From: Neolewinella xylanilytica
Lineage (GTDB): Bacteria > Bacteroidota > Bacteroidia > Chitinophagales > Saprospiraceae
Assembly: GCF_002934605.1 (NCBI RefSeq)
Contig: NZ_PTJC01000005.1
Span: forward strand, 1,984,001 to 2,048,000
DNA: 64,000 nt
Direction of reading: 5' to 3'
The notes below the pieces were generated by a model that saw nothing but the letters and a program-made list of their open reading frames with translations, ran no database searches and was not told where the DNA came from. Of the stretch, positions 3,883-12,501 are shown piece after piece. A program made the translations under genes and the position numbers. How positions within the stretch are numbered: the stretch's first letter is position 1; every line of letters starts with the position of its first letter.

Positions 3883-4651
3883 CCAGCCGGATCTGTAGAA
3901 ATATCGAAGTATAAACCAGGGTTGCGAAGGAAATATAAGGTTGCTGGTGTAACGGAGTGGCGCTCACCAAAAGAAACCCCCTAAATTATTTCCGCATCCC
4001 CGTTCGGCCATTCTTTGGATGCGGCCCGTAGTTACCCGATCCCGGTAGCCCGGGTCCCTTATCGTCGGTTGGGATGTAGCTTTCGGTCGTTGTTTCCATC
4101 GCCACCTATGGAACATGCATACGGATCTACATTGACCGGCCGAGCGTGACAGGGCAGGCCGCGCAGCGTGTGATTCGCGGCCAGGCTACTGGGTGGACAG
4201 CTGGCAATGGCGCAAGCTAAGGGCGAATTTCAAGTGATCGGTTTCCCTGAATCAACCGCTGTAAGGGCAACCGGATTCTACCACACAGGATACCCGCACG
4301 GCGCGTTCATGTGCCTTATGTCCGGAGGCTACGGGAAAAGTGAGATTGGGCCCCGGGAATTCGGCGGTGGCCGTATCGCCTGCCCTATTTCCGCCGGCGT
4401 AGTCAGGATGGGCAAATCCGGGATACAAGGATCCGTAGATTGGCATTTCATGCTTGATTTTGTGGGCGTAGGTCACATCGTAGCGGACCCTACGGCGGCC
4501 CGACTTCTTGACAAACCGGCTCTACGGATCGGCTGCCCCGAAAAGCATGATCAAGGACCGGAAGCGTAGCGTAACCTTCGGGATCGCGCCCTTGATCGGG
4601 TAGTTGCCGGTCGGGATACTATTCTCGTAGACGGTTACTCCGCCGACCACG
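3883..4651. other. gene-poor stretch, no supported gene
   Basis: About 770 bp between the dioxygenase and Hsp20 genes. Short frames exist on both strands (for example plus-strand 4207-4569, 120 codons) but none resembles a known protein or shows a signal peptide, domain or coupling to a neighbour. I see no tRNA fold and no tandem repeat. It could hold a decayed gene or a small RNA, but the sequence alone does not show which. Confidence 0.5.
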
Positions 4652-5056
4652 CTACTGGATCGGTACTTCCCGTTCCGGTCCCCGCGCCTCTGGTTTGACC
4701 GGCGCCTGGATGATGAGTATGCCCTCCTCGAACCGGGCGCTGATTGCTTGTTGGTCAACCTGATCGCTGAGTTCGAACCACCGCTCGAACGACTTGACGG
4801 GATATTCTTGCAGCATGAAGTCCGGCTCGGGATGCTCGGGTTGGCGGGTTCCGCTGATGTAGATGACGTTATTGGTGAGCGTAATCTGGATGCGATCCTT
4901 GGGGAATCCTACGCAGAAGATACGCGCCTCGAAACCGCCATCGGTGTGCTCGATGTTGACCGGTACATTGTGCTTCGGACGGCGAGGACCGTACTGGGGG
5001 CGGTGTTGCTTCCTGCCGCGGCCGGGGCCCTGTTGCTGGTGCATGGATTGGTACAT
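4652..5056 (-). CDS. Hsp20/alpha-crystallin small heat-shock protein
   Basis: 134 residues, an ATP-independent holdase of the small heat-shock family. The N-terminus is Gln/Arg/Gly rich and disordered. The alpha-crystallin domain follows (about 40-125) with pattern ISG-TRQPE and the strand FEEGILIIQAP. A short C-terminal tail contains an I/V-x-I-type anchor (VPI). I chose the ATG at 5056 because longer in-frame starts would run back into the upstream sigma-factor gene; AAGAAAG upstream could serve as a weak ribosome-binding site. The 52-bp gap to the sigma-factor gene and shared strand suggest one transcript. Confidence 0.9.
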   Translation of the reverse strand: MYQSMHQQQGPGRGRKQHRPQYGPRRPKHNVPVNIEHTDGGFEARIFCVGFPKDRIQITLTNNVIYISGTRQPEHPEPDFMLQEYPVKSFERWFELSDQVDQQAISARFEEGILIIQAPVKPEARGPEREVPIQ

Positions 5057-5108
5057 GTGCTTTCTTGGTTGGTGGTATGCAGGAAGTCGTTGCGGACGGG
5101 CAATTACT

Positions 5109-5627
5109 TTATTCCGGCCCGAAATAATCGTCATATAATTCCTGGAGCAGGTCCCGAAGCCGCTGCCGGGCATATCCTTTGCGCGAGATGACGGTCTTCA
5201 GGGGCACCCCGAGGTCTGCGGCAATCTCGCGAAGGGTTTCGCCCCGTACGGCATTGCGGATAAACACCTCTCGCTGTTTGGCGGGAAGGGTGTCGATGGC
5301 CCGGTCGATCTCTTCCCGGAGGTCCCGCGGTGCGCTATAGGGTACATCGGCTACTTCCTCCTGGTCCACTACGGTAGGATCCAGGAAGTCCGGCCGGCTT
5401 GATTGACTGCGGAAGCGATCGGTCAGCCGGTTACGGGCAACGCGGTAGAGCCAGGCTCTTGGATTATCCAGTTGCTGGTTTTCCAAGGCGGCGGATAGCG
5501 CAGCCCAGACATCCTGTAAGATATCCCGGGCCTCCTCGTCATCGATGCGGGAGTGGACAAACGCCTCCAGCTCCGACCGGTACCGGGCGTAAATTTCCTG
5601 CCAGCGAACGGTGGTGGAGTATCGCAT
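5109..5627 (-). CDS. ECF-type RNA polymerase sigma factor
   Basis: 172 residues. Region 2 (about 10-80) includes RDILQDVWAAL and PRAWLYRVARNRLTDRFR, which bind core polymerase and the -10 element. Region 4 (about 115-170) contains LPAKQREVF and the helix-turn-helix segment LREIAADLGVPLKTV. I chose the ATG at 5627 because the longer reading frame adds 60 residues with no family similarity. The gene precedes hsp20 on the same strand, so it may control a protein-folding stress response. No anti-sigma gene lies beside it. It diverges from the DUF3616 gene across 118 bp that must hold both promoters. Confidence 0.93.
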   Translation of the reverse strand: MRYSTTVRWQEIYARYRSELEAFVHSRIDDEEARDILQDVWAALSAALENQQLDNPRAWLYRVARNRLTDRFRSQSSRPDFLDPTVVDQEEVADVPYSAPRDLREEIDRAIDTLPAKQREVFIRNAVRGETLREIAADLGVPLKTVISRKGYARQRLRDLLQELYDDYFGPE

Positions 5628-5745
5628 TACCTCCGAAGACGTTTGGCAAAGGCGAATACTCGGTACGTTGGGAAAAAAGTTTTCGGGTTCACTTTTCTTC
5701 CTGCGCTCCGGCGCACAAATGGGTTGCCGACGGAATTTGAGTGTT

Positions 5746-6828
5746 ATGAAAATGAAGCGACGGGATCCGGTGCGCCAGGTCAAGCTGGTTTTTAATAAAA
5801 ACCACAAGAAACTGGAGGACGTGCGGGGGGAATTATCGACTTCGGTCCTGGCCGACCGTACCCTCTTCCTGGCCTACGACGAGAGCTCGGCCATCGAGCG
5901 GCTCCTGGAGCAGGACGGAGCGTTCACCAAGCACAAAAGCTTCGAACTGGCCGAATTTTTCGATTTGCCCGACGGCGGGGAGGGAGAAATGGACATTGAG
6001 GGGCTGGCGTGGGAGGAGCCTTACCTGTGGTTCACCGGGAGCATGTCGCTGAAGCGCAATACCCCGGAAGAAGGGGATGATGACGCAACCGGTGCGGAAA
6101 AGCTTCAAACCATCGGCGTGGATAAAAACCGCTTCTCCCTGGGCCGGATTCCTTGCCAATACGACGCGAAAAAGGGGAAGTGGACACCGAAGAAAAAGGT
6201 GAAATCGAATGGCGAAGTGTACCGAGCCATGCTCCTGGAGGGCGGGTCCGACAGCACGGTACTGACCGAATTACTCAGTACCGACCCCCACATCAGCCGC
6301 TTCATGAACATTCCGTGCAAGGACAATGGCTTCGACATCGAGGGGCTCGCGGTTTTCGCGGGCCGGATCTTTATCGGCTTGCGGGGGCCGGTGATCGGCG
6401 GCTGGGCGATCGTCTTGGAATTCGGCGTTCACGAGCACGGCGACTTCCTCCACCTCGACGGCCGGGGCCACCGCGACAAGCCCTACCGCAAGCACTTCCT
6501 GAAGCTGGCGGGAATGGGTATCCGGGAGATCAACGTGGAAAATAAAACGGGTGATGTCCTGATCCTGGCCGGACCGACGATGGACCTCGACGGTACCATC
6601 AGTGCCTGGTGTATTCGCGGGGGCTTTCCGAAGCGGGAGGTGTCGATATGCCACGAGGCCGAACGATTGTACGACGTGACGTACGGCGGCCAGCATGCCT
6701 ACGGCAAAGACAAAGCCGAGGGGATGGCCATCATGCGCGACGGCATGCACCTGGTGGTGTACGATAGCCCGCTACCGGACCGGCTGGTGGGGAAGAGCGG
6801 GGTCTGGGCGGATGTGTTTCATCCTTAG
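5746..6828 (+). CDS. DUF3616 domain-containing protein
   Basis: 360 residues. The protein shows repeated beta-propeller-like segments: FDIEGLAV, RIFIGLRGPV, GTISAWCI and AEGMAIM. These are the D-I-E-G-L and K-A-E-G phrases typical of DUF3616. No signal peptide is seen and the N-terminus is basic, so it is probably cytoplasmic. The function of the family is not established. The ATG at 5746 was chosen because the region upstream in frame overlaps the divergent sigma-factor promoter and has no family-like sequence. The gene stands alone, with 113 bp to the next gene. Confidence 0.82.
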   Translation: MKMKRRDPVRQVKLVFNKNHKKLEDVRGELSTSVLADRTLFLAYDESSAIERLLEQDGAFTKHKSFELAEFFDLPDGGEGEMDIEGLAWEEPYLWFTGSMSLKRNTPEEGDDDATGAEKLQTIGVDKNRFSLGRIPCQYDAKKGKWTPKKKVKSNGEVYRAMLLEGGSDSTVLTELLSTDPHISRFMNIPCKDNGFDIEGLAVFAGRIFIGLRGPVIGGWAIVLEFGVHEHGDFLHLDGRGHRDKPYRKHFLKLAGMGIREINVENKTGDVLILAGPTMDLDGTISAWCIRGGFPKREVSICHEAERLYDVTYGGQHAYGKDKAEGMAIMRDGMHLVVYDSPLPDRLVGKSGVWADVFHP

Positions 6829-6941
6829 GAGCCCGCCGGGTTTAGGAGGTTGGCGGTATTGGGAAAGGCATCATATGCTGAATTTTAGTTCCTTCACTCA
6901 CGTCGCTACCCGGTCGGGCGTCAGGATATGTGAACGGACTA

Positions 6942-7514
6942 ATGCACCTTCCTTTGACCCCTACTTCTCCACATGCCGATCTGATCGATGCCTGCCTGCG
7001 GGGAGAGCGGCGGGCGCAGGAACAATTTTACCGGAGCCACTTTCCGAAATTGCTACCCATTTGCCTGCGGTACCTGGGAAACCGGGAGGAGTCGGTGGAA
7101 GTCCTGAACCAGGCCATGCTGAAAATCTTCCAATCGCTCGACGGCTACCGGGGAGACGGCTCCTTCGAAGGCTGGCTGGCCACCATCGTACGCAATCACG
7201 CCCTGAGCTTTCTGCGCGAGCAGGCGCGCGCCCAGCGCAAGTTGGTGGATAAGACGTTCGTCTGGCCTCCATCGGTACCCAACCGGGCACTGGATCAACT
7301 GGCGGTCGAAGATATTCTGAAATTACTCGAGCGCCTGCCGGATCACCTGCGGGTGGTCTTCAGCCTGGTGGTATTCGATGGCTACACCCACGCCGAAGTA
7401 GCCGCCGAATTGGAGATCACGGAAACCGCCAGCCGGTGGCGGCTGATGAAGTCGCGGGACCACTTACAGCGCGGCTACCGCGCCACCCACGCCGATAAAA
7501 CGTCCGAATCATGA
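6942..7514 (+). CDS. ECF-type RNA polymerase sigma factor
   Basis: 190 residues. Region 2 includes EEQFYR-like RAQEQFYRSHF, then GSFEGWLATIVRNHALSFLR. Region 4 contains RLPDHLRVVFSLVVFDGYTH and the HTH AEVAAELEITETASRW. This pattern is the Bacteroidetes ECF subgroup found upstream of one-TM proteins. The ATG at 6942 is used; a GTG at 6930 is the alternative. Its stop overlaps the start of the next gene by 4 bp (ATGA), the signature of translational coupling. It is the first gene of a four-gene operon ending at 9751. Confidence 0.92.
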   Translation: MHLPLTPTSPHADLIDACLRGERRAQEQFYRSHFPKLLPICLRYLGNREESVEVLNQAMLKIFQSLDGYRGDGSFEGWLATIVRNHALSFLREQARAQRKLVDKTFVWPPSVPNRALDQLAVEDILKLLERLPDHLRVVFSLVVFDGYTHAEVAAELEITETASRWRLMKSRDHLQRGYRATHADKTSES

Positions 7515-8116
7515 GCGCACCCGAGCCCTTTGAAGCACACTGGCGGCGACAACTTGCGGACTATCGGTCCGAAGCTACCGACGCGGATTGGTCCGCCATG
7601 GAGCGCCACCTTCCACCCACTCCCGGTGGTCGTTCCGCCTGGCCCTACACCTTGCTGTTAATTGCCGTGGTTGCCCTGGCTGGTTGGGGATTGTTTGCTC
7701 CGGCCACCGCCCCCCCACTTTCCTCCTTCCCGGTGGAGGTACCGGCGCCGCTGGGGCCGACCTATAACCGACCTGACCGGGTACCCTCGCTTTTGCCGGC
7801 ACTGCCCCGGGATGGCATCAGCACCGCAGCGGGTAAGGCCGCGCTATCCCTTCCGGCCTTGCCGACATTGCGCCTTGCTGCTATCGGCTTCGTGGCGGAT
7901 ACGATGCCGGCGAGGCGCTCCGCGCGGCTTGCTTCGGTGGTGACGGAACTCCCTTCACTAGGGATTCCAAAGGTACGGTCATCCTCTCCGGACCATCTCG
8001 CTACCATCGGTAAAACGCTGATTGTGGTACCCTACGCTCCGAGCGAAGCAGGTTCCAACCCCCGGTATAACGGACTTTACCCCCGCCTCCGCCAACCTAC
8101 AAAGGATAACCGATGA
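7511..8116 (+). CDS. one-TM anti-sigma-factor-like protein
   Basis: 201 residues with no clear named domain. About 45 N-terminal residues are charged and start FEAHWRRQLADY. One transmembrane helix follows (about 45-66, YTLLLIAVVALAGWGLF), then a Pro/Ser-rich region of about 135 residues expected in the periplasm. Position directly after an ECF sigma factor with an ATGA overlap, together with this topology, makes an anti-sigma or sigma-partner role likely. That is inference from context, because no zinc-binding ZAS motif (HxxxCxxC) is present. The gene also overlaps the next one by 4 bp. Confidence 0.7.
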   Translation: MSAPEPFEAHWRRQLADYRSEATDADWSAMERHLPPTPGGRSAWPYTLLLIAVVALAGWGLFAPATAPPLSSFPVEVPAPLGPTYNRPDRVPSLLPALPRDGISTAAGKAALSLPALPTLRLAAIGFVADTMPARRSARLASVVTELPSLGIPKVRSSSPDHLATIGKTLIVVPYAPSEAGSNPRYNGLYPRLRQPTKDNR

Positions 8117-8997
8117 AGCTCCTTCGACTCGTACTGTTCACCATGCTATGGACCCCGACACTTACTGGGCAGGATGCCGCCACCGATACCGTGCCGTTTC
8201 CAATGCGGCATAACGGTCGCTCTTCCGGCCTCCAGGTGAGCTACGGTCTTAATGCTTACGTTCCCGTCTTCGGCGGAACCACCTTCGGTGCGTCCCTTGA
8301 CCTCGAAGGGCGCTTCCATCGTAACTTCAGTTTCCTGGCCACGCTGGGTCGTCAGATCGAAACGACCACTGACGTCTGGGGGAACATGCCACTGGATACG
8401 ATCGGGCCGCCGCTTCCGCCGGCATGGCCGCGGGAACGGGTGGGCTCCGACGTAGGACAGCACCAGCGTTGGACCTATTTGGGCGGCGGTGTCCAGACTA
8501 ACCTGCGAATCGGCGCCGGGGACTTTTGCCTGGGCGTGCTGCTGACAGTTGGCTTGGATCAATTGCGTCAGTTCATCCCCTACGGTAGCCTTGTCCTTCC
8601 TACCGTGATCGATCCGCCAAAACCAAATACCATTGGTGCCCCGCGCGGGCTCTCCGGGGTGGCAACCGTCAACTACCAGCCCCTGATCCGGCTCGGGGGC
8701 CGGCTGCAGCTGCACTACACCCGTTGGTTCTCCCGCCACCTTGCCCTGCGGGTTGGTGCCGCGATCGACGGTCGAGGCACCGTCATCTCCGGAACGTACA
8801 ACGATCGCTCCCCGGAGCGTAGTCGGTACCAAGTGAGCGAGATAAGCTACTCCGAATTGTTCCGCTCAGGGATTGAGAACTATGGTTTACCTATCCCGGA
8901 ATTCTTCCAAACGTCCGATCCTACTTCCCGACGCGCAGCCGTCTTAGTGAACGTCGGGGTTATCTACAAACCTTCGAAAAATTTACCCGGTGAATAG
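8113..8997 (+). CDS. outer-membrane-type beta-barrel protein, unknown function
   Basis: 294 residues with a signal peptide ending near T-L-T-G-Q. The mature part shows alternating aromatic/hydrophobic strands, for example LQVSYGLNAYVPVFGG and RLQLHYTRWFSRHLALRVG, as in porin-like barrels of Bacteroidetes. I do not recognise a specific family. It overlaps the anti-sigma-like gene by 4 bp and the next gene by 8 bp, so it is translated with them. A role in an envelope-stress or surface-remodelling output of the sigma factor is possible. Confidence 0.72.
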   Translation: MKLLRLVLFTMLWTPTLTGQDAATDTVPFPMRHNGRSSGLQVSYGLNAYVPVFGGTTFGASLDLEGRFHRNFSFLATLGRQIETTTDVWGNMPLDTIGPPLPPAWPRERVGSDVGQHQRWTYLGGGVQTNLRIGAGDFCLGVLLTVGLDQLRQFIPYGSLVLPTVIDPPKPNTIGAPRGLSGVATVNYQPLIRLGGRLQLHYTRWFSRHLALRVGAAIDGRGTVISGTYNDRSPERSRYQVSEISYSELFRSGIENYGLPIPEFFQTSDPTSRRAAVLVNVGVIYKPSKNLPGE

Positions 8998-9751
8998 CTA
9001 TTGGCTACCATGGCTGCTCCTGCTAGCCCCCGCCCCCTTCGTGGCCCAGATTACGCTCGAACCCTCCACTTCGGCCGGAACGGCCTGGTTCAAAGAGGAG
9101 GTAGGAGACAACCGGGGGGCAAAATTTTCCTACGGCCTCGGCTTACATTACGCCTTCAATGATACCGACCGGCGAAGCTTAGGGGTCGAATTCGCCCGGG
9201 AGGATTATGGAGGGTTTCATATTCCCCGCAGTTTCTCGCAGATCGTCCCTGCACCCGACGCTACCGGTGAGTTGCGGGCGGTCAGTATGCAGACCAGCTA
9301 CCAGACACTGGGTGCCTACCGTCTTTCACTGGTGTATCGTGAGGCGCTAAGCCGTACCCTCTCTCGGTTCACCGTAGGCCTGGCCAGCACCCTCGTGCGA
9401 CTGAAAACCGACGGGGGCGTCATAAACAATGTCGTACAGCAGTCGCTCGATGGCGAGATCGTACCTTATTCCTACTGGCTGCGGGAAAGCGTGAAATTGG
9501 AGGAGGGTGTTCTACGGCGAATACTTCGTACGGAAGCACCTATGAAAGAGGACAATCAACTCCACCGCTACCGGTATCAGTATAGCGTAATCGCTTACTA
9601 CGCATTATCTGCCGACCTAAAGGTTTTTGTGTCTTTCGATTCCACGATCGGAGCGCTCGGCAAGCGGTACGGGCGGGGGGGCAACCAGTTAATGTTAGGA
9701 GAAGTAAGAAGCTGGAACCTGGGTTTTTCGGGTTCTATTTTCCAGTGGTGA
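8990..9751 (+). CDS. outer-membrane-type protein, unknown function
   Basis: 253 residues. Translation starts at a GTG (8990) 8 bp before the previous stop, and residues 1-19 form a signal peptide ending P-F-V-A-Q. The rest has beta-strand character (FSYGLGLHYAFN, TLGAYRLSLVYRE, YSVIAYYALS) and ends in an aromatic residue (SIFQW), as barrels recognised by the BAM machinery often do. No named family is recognised. It is the last gene of the sigma/anti-sigma-like/outer-membrane operon and resembles its neighbour in size and style, though I cannot show they are paralogues. Confidence 0.7.
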   Translation: MNSYWLPWLLLLAPAPFVAQITLEPSTSAGTAWFKEEVGDNRGAKFSYGLGLHYAFNDTDRRSLGVEFAREDYGGFHIPRSFSQIVPAPDATGELRAVSMQTSYQTLGAYRLSLVYREALSRTLSRFTVGLASTLVRLKTDGGVINNVVQQSLDGEIVPYSYWLRESVKLEEGVLRRILRTEAPMKEDNQLHRYRYQYSVIAYYALSADLKVFVSFDSTIGALGKRYGRGGNQLMLGEVRSWNLGFSGSIFQW

Positions 9752-10230: not shown

Positions 10231-12501
10231 TTATCGTACGACATATAAAGGGCTAAGCATCAAATTTTTGCCGGGAGTGAAGGCGGATACCACGTAGCTA
10301 CCGGCGGGTAAGTGGTCGACGGGTAAGTCCAACGTATTCTGTCCGACGTGCCCGCGGTATTCCCGTTCCGCGACTACTTGACCGCCCATTGTCACGAGGC
10401 GGAGCGTAACGTCCTTTTCCACGTCGAGGTCGATCGAAAGCTTGGCCAGGTCGCTGGCGGGGTTGGGATAAATATTCAAGTGGGGAGATTCTTGGAGCGC
10501 CCTGGTAACGGCAAGTACGCTACTGATGGTGCTGCTCCCATCCAGGTCTTCCGTAACGATCCGGTAGTACGACAAGTCTTCCGGGTAGCGGTCATAGAAT
10601 TCGTAGTCAAGGATGTCGTCGCTGTTCCCTGCCGCCGGTAAGCTGCAAATAATCTCCCAGTCACCCAGTCCCGTCGTACTCCGTTCTACGTGGTGGTAAG
10701 CCGTCTCGTGCTCAAAGGCGGTACTCCACGAAATCAGGTTATAATCCCGGAGGGCTTCCCCGGTGACCAGCAATAGCTCGACTGGGAGTGCCGCCGCATT
10801 GTAGGCGGGGTTGCTGGAAATGGTGATATGGTCGATCGGCGTACCGTCTTCGCGCATGGCGAAGGTCAGCTTATGAATGCCGGTCGAAGGGACGTTGATC
10901 GTCGGTAGATCCTCGTAGAAGGTCCAGCTGCCTGGTGACAGAACGTTAAATTGCTGTTCCCCCAGCTTTACGTCATTGAATAAGTAGGTGTAAGAATTAT
11001 CGCTACCGGTGGGCGCTCGGTGCCGGACGTTGAGGTAGTGGATACCGGTTTGTACGAAGTTGATGTCGAACTCCTCAACGGGCGCGTTGTACGACAGCGC
11101 TCCGTTCAGCAGGTTATTGACCAGGCCGGGATCTTCCACCTGGGCGTACATTCCGCCGAGGGCGGTGGGATCCGTTTTGACTTCCCAGCCCAGCTGGTTG
11201 AACAAACCGATACCGGGCAAGCGGCGGCTCGGCGTCTCCATCGGTAGCTGTACGAGGTGATCGGGAGTATTATCCTGCTGGTAGACCAACCGGGCGGGGA
11301 ACATCGTCGTAGGGATCGGTCCGGTACCGGTAGGATTGAAATAGGGATCCGTGGTCACTACGATCTTGTCGATCGGCGCGCCGTCACTCCGCATTACCAG
11401 ACTCAACAGGAAGGTACCGGAAGTCTTGTTCGTGTAGCCAAGATAGTATCCATTCCACCGCCAGCCGGTGGAGTTCGTTAATCCGCGTGCGTACTGATAG
11501 GTGCCGCTGTAATCGAGGGCGGTGAAGATGGTGTTGTTCCCGTTAGAAGCCTTGTGCCGGATGAATACGTAGTAGTAATCAGCTTGCGCCACGGTGATCT
11601 CGAAATCCAACATCGGCGCGGACCAGATGGAACCGTTCGGAACTTCCACGCCGTTGTTCTCGGTGGCCATATACTGGCCTCCGCTCGCGGTGGGGTCGGA
11701 GCGAATGATCCAGGGCTGGCATTCGTAGTCCCGTAAACCGGACATATTGTAGGTGAAATCCTCGGCTTCGATCACCGCGTAGCCTTCACCGGTACGGTAG
11801 TCCATGTGGTGCTCGACGCGTTCGTTCATGCCGCGTGTCAGGGAGGTCCCGTCCTCCGTGGCATCGGGGCCGATGCCGGTAAAGGGATAATTGGTGGTCG
11901 TACTAATGGCCAACCGATCCAGGTCGAAGCCATCTTCCCGGTGAAAGATCGTGAGGGTATGCACGCCGGTAGTGGGCACGGTAAAGGTGAGGGGGGCCTC
12001 GATCCACGTCCAGCCGGTCACGTTCGTGGGCACGTTCCAGTTAGCCTGAAACACCGTGCCGTCGAACGCGGCATGAATGGAATTGTCGCTTCCGTCATCC
12101 GCGAAATAGCGGATATAGAAATGGTGGATACCCGTCTTGACGAAGGTGATGTCAAAATCCAGGCGGGCCCCGGCGGGCGGGAGGGTCAGGGCATTCTGGT
12201 TGGTAGAATTGACCCGCACGTACCCCCCGTTTCCGGCGTCGTTGGAGGTGTACTCCAGCCAGAGGGCGTTGGCGTCGTGCGTCGGTACCTGGGATGCCAG
12301 GCTGCGGGTGGATGCCTCGGCTTCCATTACCGCCAGGCCATCACCACTACTGTCGTCTTGGTAATAGGCGGTAGCGCCACAGCCGGGGGCAACCGAGGCT
12401 GCGCCAACGGTAGTTGGCCGTCCGAAGAAAAAGAAACAGATGAGCGTGGCCACGAAGGTGGCCCGGCGGACTATGTCCTGGCGAGTGATCAAGGTTTGCA
12501 C
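10231..12501 (-). CDS. secreted three-module lectin-like protein with T9SS sorting domain
   Basis: 756 residues. The start is a GTG at 12501, with a signal peptide of about 35 residues. Three related modules follow (about 40-210, 235-390 and 405-575). Each begins with a Y-Q-D-D or A-V-I-E-A-E-D-type strand and ends with the phrase I-D-x-I-x-I-S/T after R-E/S-D-G. This resembles CBM6/malectin-like beta-sandwiches that bind carbohydrates. A fibronectin-like segment (about 580-665) contains YHHVERSTTG. The last 80 residues start HLNIYPNPASD and match the type A T9SS sorting domain. The protein is therefore expected to be exported through T9SS and anchored or released at the surface. The ligand is unknown. 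Confidence 0.85.
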   Translation of the reverse strand: MQTLITRQDIVRRATFVATLICFFFFGRPTTVGAASVAPGCGATAYYQDDSSGDGLAVMEAEASTRSLASQVPTHDANALWLEYTSNDAGNGGYVRVNSTNQNALTLPPAGARLDFDITFVKTGIHHFYIRYFADDGSDNSIHAAFDGTVFQANWNVPTNVTGWTWIEAPLTFTVPTTGVHTLTIFHREDGFDLDRLAISTTTNYPFTGIGPDATEDGTSLTRGMNERVEHHMDYRTGEGYAVIEAEDFTYNMSGLRDYECQPWIIRSDPTASGGQYMATENNGVEVPNGSIWSAPMLDFEITVAQADYYYVFIRHKASNGNNTIFTALDYSGTYQYARGLTNSTGWRWNGYYLGYTNKTSGTFLLSLVMRSDGAPIDKIVVTTDPYFNPTGTGPIPTTMFPARLVYQQDNTPDHLVQLPMETPSRRLPGIGLFNQLGWEVKTDPTALGGMYAQVEDPGLVNNLLNGALSYNAPVEEFDINFVQTGIHYLNVRHRAPTGSDNSYTYLFNDVKLGEQQFNVLSPGSWTFYEDLPTINVPSTGIHKLTFAMREDGTPIDHITISSNPAYNAAALPVELLLVTGEALRDYNLISWSTAFEHETAYHHVERSTTGLGDWEIICSLPAAGNSDDILDYEFYDRYPEDLSYYRIVTEDLDGSSTISSVLAVTRALQESPHLNIYPNPASDLAKLSIDLDVEKDVTLRLVTMGGQVVAEREYRGHVGQNTLDLPVDHLPAGSYVVSAFTPGKNLMLSPLYVVR

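Follow-up and report, generated by a model that had tools for sequence, protein, structure and literature searches.

In FecA/FecR/FecI signalling, an outer-membrane (OM) protein, an inner-membrane anti-sigma factor that reaches the periplasm, and an extracytoplasmic function (ECF) sigma factor are separate polypeptides. The dual membrane-spanning anti-sigma (Dma) system consists of an ECF sigma gene adjoining an anti-sigma gene whose product carries an N-terminal sigma-binding region, one transmembrane (TM) segment, a long disordered tether and an OM barrel (PMC13088901). Published Dma members control their cognate sigma factor, and the dma2 operon itself was among the most changed genes upon dma2 deletion (PMC13088901). 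Here, a four-gene operon of Neolewinella xylanilytica (host genome ~5.4 Mb) was analyzed within a 64,000-nucleotide stretch of contig NZ_PTJC01000005.1, hereafter the window. The operon encodes an ECF sigma factor, a one-TM partner and two predicted OM barrels, barrel 1 and barrel 2 (Table 1). With a probability of roughly two in three, we read it as a split Dma-type system, namely a self-regulating sensor of its own OM barrel complex.

The locus shares with the Dma systems of that source an ECF sigma gene adjoining a one-TM, tethered partner, together with an OM barrel (PMC13088901). In contrast to the Dma as described there, the window barrels lie outside the anti-sigma chain, with the partner stopping after 201 residues; two barrel genes are present, of which barrel 1 is unrelated by profile to the fused barrel; split operons of other genera include a lipoprotein; and a conserved peptide terminates the split tether. 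A Dma is defined by its single chain, and in that respect the system is not one; by analogy it probably works like a Dma. Separate polypeptides for the OM proteins, the partner and the ECF sigma factor recall FecA/FecR/FecI, whereas the window barrels are predicted to be small and eight-stranded rather than TonB-dependent receptors. Pfam searches at E values up to 1 matched none of the four operon proteins to FecR or to a TonB-dependent receptor, which places the operon outside the FecI/FecR/FecA type. A literature search limited to open-licence papers retrieved no description of a split Dma form. The sigma locus is conserved and goes beyond an ordinary sigma/anti-sigma pair, yet is of a known kind. 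The initial annotation of the window had coupled the sigma factor to the barrels as cell-surface signalling, with the barrels as sensor or output; this remains plausible, although the probable anti-sigma role of the partner and the kinship of barrel 2 had been missed.

Table 1. Operon features in window coordinates.
Feature	Position	Strand	Evidence
ECF-type promoter-like site CTCACG-N16-CGTCA, 18 bp before sigma start	6897..6923	+	kept blocks and fixed spacing
ECF sigma factor, regions 2 and 4	6942..7514	+	Pfam Sigma70_r2 4.5e-13, Sigma70_r4_2 1.3e-10
Partner, probable anti-sigma factor: cytosolic N-terminus ~1-42, TM ~47-65, Pro-rich periplasmic tether	7511..8116	+	N-terminal hidden Markov model (HMM), hydropathy
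Partner C-terminal peptide, residues 187-201, NGLYPRLRQPTKDNR, proposed docking peptide	8069..8113	+	alignments, shuffle test
Barrel 1: signal peptide (by reading) and predicted 8-strand OmpA-like OM barrel	8113..8997	+	AlphaFold2 (AF2), VIA-align, alignment
Barrel 2: signal peptide (by reading) and predicted 8-strand OmpA-like OM barrel	8990..9751	+	AF2, VIA-align, hhalign to fused barrels

Pfam recognized the sigma factor by its ECF regions and gave no accepted family for the other three proteins. A Dma is expected to have a cognate sigma factor of group ECF21; the window sigma factor scored below the TIGR02985 cutoff (72 of 126.4 bits). The partner matched nothing acceptable in Pfam, NCBIfam or solved structures, and its membership of a known curated family was rejected. 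By hydropathy it has one hydrophobic segment, agreeing with the single TM helix of a Dma, followed by a poorly alignable tether of 132 residues with 14.4% Pro. The first 48 residues of 11 partners were made into an HMM, which was run against 2898 open reading frames (ORFs) from 152 loci. After the partners themselves came ten rows from nine genes, all ORFs of 367–515 aa (E = 1.8e-7 to 2.4e-3), a result that is not independent because the matched loci were fetched with the partner profile; next in the same ranking stood L128 and L104 (E = 0.006 and 0.009), whose loci were fetched by sigma alone. The match of its N-terminus to those of fused anti-sigma/barrel (Dma-like) proteins makes the partner a probable anti-sigma factor, contrary to the earlier statement that it lacks known anti-sigma motifs. 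It seems very improbable that the partner is instead a scaffold for the barrels, with the sigma factor controlled otherwise (e.g., by level alone). The missing match to a curated anti-sigma family or solved structure would suit such a role, whereas two observations argue against it: the N-terminal match to the Dma-like type, for whose published members sigma control is described (PMC13088901), and the ATGA coupling of partner to sigma in 15/15 loci described below.

Within the order, fused Dma-like proteins (L143, L145, L146, L151, L152 and others) resemble the partner in N-terminal motif, TM segment and tether; an ECF sigma gene is adjacent where read, and barrel 2 is related to their barrel. 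They differ in forming one chain of ~370–520 aa, compared with separate genes in the window. A nine-row partner profile matched 19/199 family genomes. Besides the window genome (G000) and G005, it pointed to 18 places, 14 of them in open frames of at least 413 aa and four in frames of 189, 310, 336 and 362 aa, two of which resemble FecR proteins by reading. An eleven-row profile matched 60/248 genomes of the order; seven split-clade partners (two of them barrel-less) ranked at the top, and nearly all later matches lay in frames of 419–683 aa, with exceptions of 221, 226, 287 and 1805. In these genome searches for partner and barrels the best 10–14 candidates per genome were scored, and the tallies are lower bounds; in barrel-1 and related searches of the 21 genus genomes all candidates were scored. 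The Pfam family OMP_b-brl exceeded its gathering score in 7/10 scanned family proteins (L142, L143, L145, L146, L147, L151 and L152), and was weak in L153 and absent from L149 and L157. Among 80 named loci, 48 were read after the sigma gene; these held many one-TM proteins with W-x-x-I-type motifs, and long proteins ending barrel-like at L060, L062, L075, L101, L113 and L127. OMP_b-brl was above cutoff at L101, L113, L127 and L070 and just below it at L060. Two more sigma loci of the window genome itself encode a fused-type partner, one at L183 (424 aa) and one at L185 (493 aa); the Pfam barrel match was weak in L185 and absent in L183, and a profile containing L183 still matched other fused barrels. 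Judged from these proteins, the one-chain form, with predicted anti-sigma domain, TM segment, tether and OM barrel, is the usual form among the partner's relatives in the order. At L183 (C2, 7148–8975, − strand), an OM protein (283 aa) and another surface-type protein are encoded ahead of the fused-type paralog; similar pairs precede the L183-type gene in other genus genomes and may belong to that system.

The barrel-like character originally assigned to the last two genes was supported by structure prediction, and both proteins were modelled as barrels. With seven-row alignments, AF2 gave barrel 1 a mean predicted local distance difference test (pLDDT) of 71.9 and a predicted template modelling score (pTM) of 0.69 (five models 65.9–71.9; 63 residues below 50). 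For barrel 2 the best mean pLDDT was 75.4 and pTM 0.68, and its predicted fold is less settled because the five models range from 44.1 to 75.4. Eight main strands were counted in the secondary structure of each model, and both predicted folds are antiparallel and OmpA-like. VIA-align matched the barrel 1 model to 9nh2 (Z = 16.5; 175 aligned, 3.6 Å), NspA (15.6), and OprF and OmpA (~15), and the barrel 2 model to the OmpA model 9a2m (Z = 18.6; 166 aligned, 2.9 Å) and NspA (18.2); the best structural matches of both are small OM barrels at low identity. Foldseek alone (E ≤ 0.001) returned 4 matches for barrel 1 and 60 for barrel 2, with a template modelling score by query length of at most 0.42 among the matches listed. 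The barrel 1 family is marked by NxRxGxGD and YTxW.

Profile comparison separated the two barrels. In hhalign, barrel 2 matched two sets of fused C-terminal barrels at 87.9% (3.3e-6) and 94.3% (9.7e-8), the two sets matching each other at 89.2% (2.2e-6); three distant barrel 2 rows alone gave 70.6% and 94.4%. Both barrels scored 1.4–1.9% against the separate barrels of Pedobacter and 0.5–2.1% against the OM protein family upstream of fused loci, and reversed decoys stayed below 1%. These results suggest that barrel 2 is likely a released Dma barrel, and the description of two orphan OM proteins no longer fits it. Barrel 1 reached 15.1% and 2.1% against the fused sets and was not accepted as a fused barrel; by profile it appears to be an added family, different from that barrel. 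Descent of the two barrels from one another by duplication was likewise not accepted, as a 28-column match at 74% dropped to 4.9% without the signal peptides.

Some sigma match was found in 60/60 related genomes, among which ten genus loci were distinct from the rest: G000 (the window), G001, G020, G011, G008, G005, G009, G018, G015 and G014. The nine genus orthologs of the window sigma factor share 56–79% identity with it; the nearest named locus, among the best 80 of 434 relatives, is that of Lewinella sp. IMCC34183 (68%). Reading of the neighbouring genes showed the partner, barrel 1 and barrel 2 intact and in the same order in seven of the ten loci. The absence of the barrels from orthologous sigma loci, which had been named as a point that would count against the initial annotation, was seen in two of ten (G005 and G014, with sigma and partner only), one more locus being broken; this objection, like the one that the proteins are not barrels, largely falls away. 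In the broken locus, G011, frames are disrupted in the partner, in barrel 1 and probably in barrel 2; an assembly error is possible because the neighbouring methyltransferase also looks broken, and G011 was left out as evidence of a decaying operon.

Further split operons were found beyond these ten. L047 of G019, in the same genus, and L180 of G104, in another, both carry a lipoprotein-like gene after the series of sigma, partner, barrel 1 and barrel 2; G019 also has a second barrel-1-like gene. In G062 (L229), the same four genes come one after another behind the promoter-like site. In G276 (L230), they are followed by a lipoprotein, a further pair of barrel-2-like genes and another lipoprotein; at 5261–8952 of this locus, barrel-2-like gene and lipoprotein are repeated as if one unit. 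In total, 11 contiguous intact split operons were counted in four genera (g1, g84, g42 and g120), and in a fifth genus G148 (g128) shows the partner end, barrel 1, barrel 2 and a lipoprotein at a contig edge. Barrel 1 is uncommon: its profile matched 9/21 genus genomes, and a wider profile at least 14/248 family genomes, six of them at E < 1e-18 (up to 10 candidates per genome scored).

The four ORFs and their overlaps of 4, 4 and 8 bp were confirmed in the window. The sigma gene runs from an ATG at 6942 to a stop codon ending at 7514, and barrel 2 starts with a GTG at 8990; a GTG start at 6930 is less likely for sigma because the promoter-like site ends at 6923. The 4-bp ATGA overlap of sigma and partner is kept in 10/10 orthologous genus loci and also in G019, G104, G258, G062 and G276, giving 15/15 loci. 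In the seven intact genus operons (G000, G001, G020, G008, G009, G018 and G015), the partner/barrel 1 spacing is −4, +5, −4, −4, +20, −1 and +20, and the barrel 1/barrel 2 spacing −8, +4, +11, −4, −4, +4 and +4. Because junction and order are conserved across loci, the arrangement is beyond chance. The claim that the proteins are made together in fixed ratio is supported for sigma and partner only, since the two later junctions vary. Divergence within the operon is uneven: G001 and the window share 79% identity in sigma, 34% in the partner (a figure that shifts with the alignment used), 34% in barrel 1 and 21% in barrel 2, so that the envelope parts change far faster than sigma.

The end of the partner was compared across the same loci. 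The peptide ends in NGLYPRLR, SGSYYPTP, NGYYPPTR, NGLYPPVR, NGHFPAYR, NGHFPPIN and NGLYPRVR in the seven genus operons, in NTLFPDVINN in G019, and in RTLYPDVIERY, RTLYPDVIERY, KTLFPDVIEKY, KALFPEIFESY and RKLYPDVIENY in G104, G258, G062, G276 and G148. [YF]P lies near the C-terminus in 13/13 split-type partners, behind a tether of variable sequence. The strict pattern [GT][LHYS][YF]P occurred within the last 20 residues of 8/9 partners tested (not G001), whereas 5000 shuffles gave on average 0.03 of 9 and never more than 1 of 9; [YF]P occurred within the last 16 residues of 10/11 partners, barrel-less ones included (shuffled mean 1.0, maximum 5), both patterns having been drawn up after seeing the alignment and tested on the same data. 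A role as an OMP-like beta-signal with terminal aromatic residue was rejected, as a terminal Y/F is not universal (present in G018, G015, G104, G258, G062, G276 and G148; absent from G000, G001, G020, G008, G009 and G019). The tether of the two barrel-less partners has 5.9% and 5.1% Pro vs. 10.5–26.4% in nine others. The C-terminal peptide is a possible dock for the barrels.

Alternatively, the barrels may be regulon members only, without contact with the partner, and another component, such as a periplasmic protease or the tether itself, may do the sensing. We regard this as unlikely: a peptide conserved at the end of a variable tether speaks against it, as does the kinship of barrel 2 to a barrel that is covalently joined to an anti-sigma-like chain in the fused relatives. 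On the other hand, the two loci with sigma and partner but no adjacent barrels are what it would lead one to expect, and in Pedobacter-type loci, too, the barrel is a separate gene after the sigma/partner pair.

The unlinked case of G258 bears on both readings. On C9 (L227), sigma and partner without barrels occupy the site at which the congener G104 holds the whole operon, between the same two flanking genes. On C16 (L228), barrel 1, barrel 2 and a lipoprotein lie behind CTAACC-N16-CGATAGT, with a 34-residue sigma remnant between this site and barrel 1 (62% identity, E = 4e-13 in a one-sequence search). From this remnant and the shared site type, it seems that a duplicated operon kept sigma and partner in one copy and the barrels in the other, both under the same type of site. 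The arrangement supports a joint function, and it is also compatible with barrels that are plain regulon members, lying on a separate contig behind the same kind of site.

Promoter-like sites were found before sigma in 15/15 loci read, G148 being outside the count as it has no upstream sequence. In 10/10 genus loci, CTMAC[GA]-N16-CGTCA/TGCTA or similar lies 41–58 bp before the sigma start, with a weaker second block in G020 (AGTTT) and G011 (AGCTA); in 2000 shuffled sets the pattern, itself drawn from the data, occurred in 0.0035 of 10 on average and in at most 1 of 10. In G019, G104, G258, G062 and G276, CTMAC[CGT]-N16-CGATAGT lies 48–111 bp upstream. At nine fused loci a pattern of this type matched nothing, but its spacing also made it miss the G104 and G019 sites, and the result does not count as a negative. 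Exact-pattern genome searches gave two sites in G000 (one at the operon, the other within an open frame; backward control 3), seven sites of the GGTGCTA form in the nine other genus genomes (six at operons, the seventh within an open frame; control 6), and six sites of the CGATAGT form in six genomes (four sigma operons, the G258 barrels and one inside a frame; control 2). G001, G020 and G011 were missed by the GGTGCTA pattern, and G062 by the CGATAGT pattern, because single letters differ. The extra matches, in G000, G014 and G258-C11, were not accepted as regulon members because they lie inside frames of 589, 728 and 482 aa and the counts are at the level of the backward control.

In a first tree of 49 sigma factors, ten split-type and two barrel-less rows formed a clade (support 82/90), nested in a clade (100/98) otherwise holding 11 fused and two macroglobulin-like rows. 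In a second tree, from which four long-branch fused rows were dropped and to which three split-type rows were added, 15 rows (13 split-type and two barrel-less) formed one clade (91/93), and its neighbours were again fused and macroglobulin-like types (83/89). The G019 sigma is a long branch. The split label has to change three times, which would fit one gain plus two losses, and a single origin of the split form is favoured over several, though not proven, on these trees. Near the split clade, the sigma genes of L051 (G023:C7, oriented 4440–8604) and L187 (5019–10001) are followed by giant one-TM proteins of at least 1388 and at least 1661 aa, with a W-motif N-terminus and alpha-2-macroglobulin-type repeats (domain name by reading); by reading, this layout is an anti-sigma-like tether fused to another module.

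For the split Dma-type system, the sequences show the conserved gene order, the N-terminal kinship, the barrel 2 kinship, the predicted folds, the C-terminal peptide and the promoter-like site, while sigma binding, docking, release, signal, autoregulation and regulon are inferred. The partner N-terminus would hold sigma at the inner membrane, the Pro-rich tether would cross the periplasm, and its conserved C-terminal peptide would dock on a two-barrel OM complex, in other genera including the lipoprotein. Upon a change in the state of this complex (unassembled, ligand-bound or stressed), the partner would free sigma by release or proteolysis, and the freed sigma would transcribe mainly its own operon, yielding more barrels and inhibitor in a closed homeostatic loop. 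A more specific version, to which we give less than even odds and which is offered tentatively, holds that the partner is a non-covalent plug on the two-barrel (plus lipoprotein) complex, that the circuit measures and restores its own OM assembly, and that it arose once, when a fused Dma was taken apart and a second, unrelated barrel was added.

Several points weigh against the split Dma-type reading. In G005 and G014, two of the ten genus orthologs, no barrels adjoin the sigma/partner pair, and the barrel-1 profile finds no barrel 1 elsewhere in either genome; of these two, G005 was searched for barrel 2 outside the locus, with 13 of 49 candidates scored. Their partners still hold YSPSVR and LYPELR at the C-terminus, so that no clean co-loss of peptide and barrels was seen. 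The kinship of barrel 2 drops to 57.6% and 12.2% when its seven genus rows alone are used, and the fused sets reach 3.6% and 11.8% against the Pedobacter control barrels. In addition, the peptide and promoter patterns were each tested on the data that suggested them, and the counts behind a one-site regulon are about the level of the backward-pattern control, while weaker promoters would be missed by exact patterns.

Other features were noted nearby and in related loci. A second ECF-type sigma gene adjoins an HSP20 gene in the window (5109–5807 and 4652–5173, both − strand); its best subfamily is TIGR02985, below cutoff. The gene at 10231–12501 (− strand) encodes a protein that carries a type IX sorting domain and matches CBM6 weakly; similar proteins adjoin the operon in G001, G020 and G011. 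In L040 (G005), positions 11130–11665 are densely repetitive. The repeats read ERSEHVPAAASPKSRI in one frame, stretches of undetermined bases occur among them, and they may form an interspersed repeat family.

In this naturally split form, separate genes encode the tether with its end peptide and the barrels, which makes the OM-to-cytoplasm signal step of Dma testable and allows the signal path across two membranes to be probed by simple deletions and co-purification. In G258, sigma/partner and barrels on different contigs provide a natural complementation test. Furthermore, the promoter-like sites lie almost exclusively at the operon, which suggests that the output of the circuit would be its own sensor.

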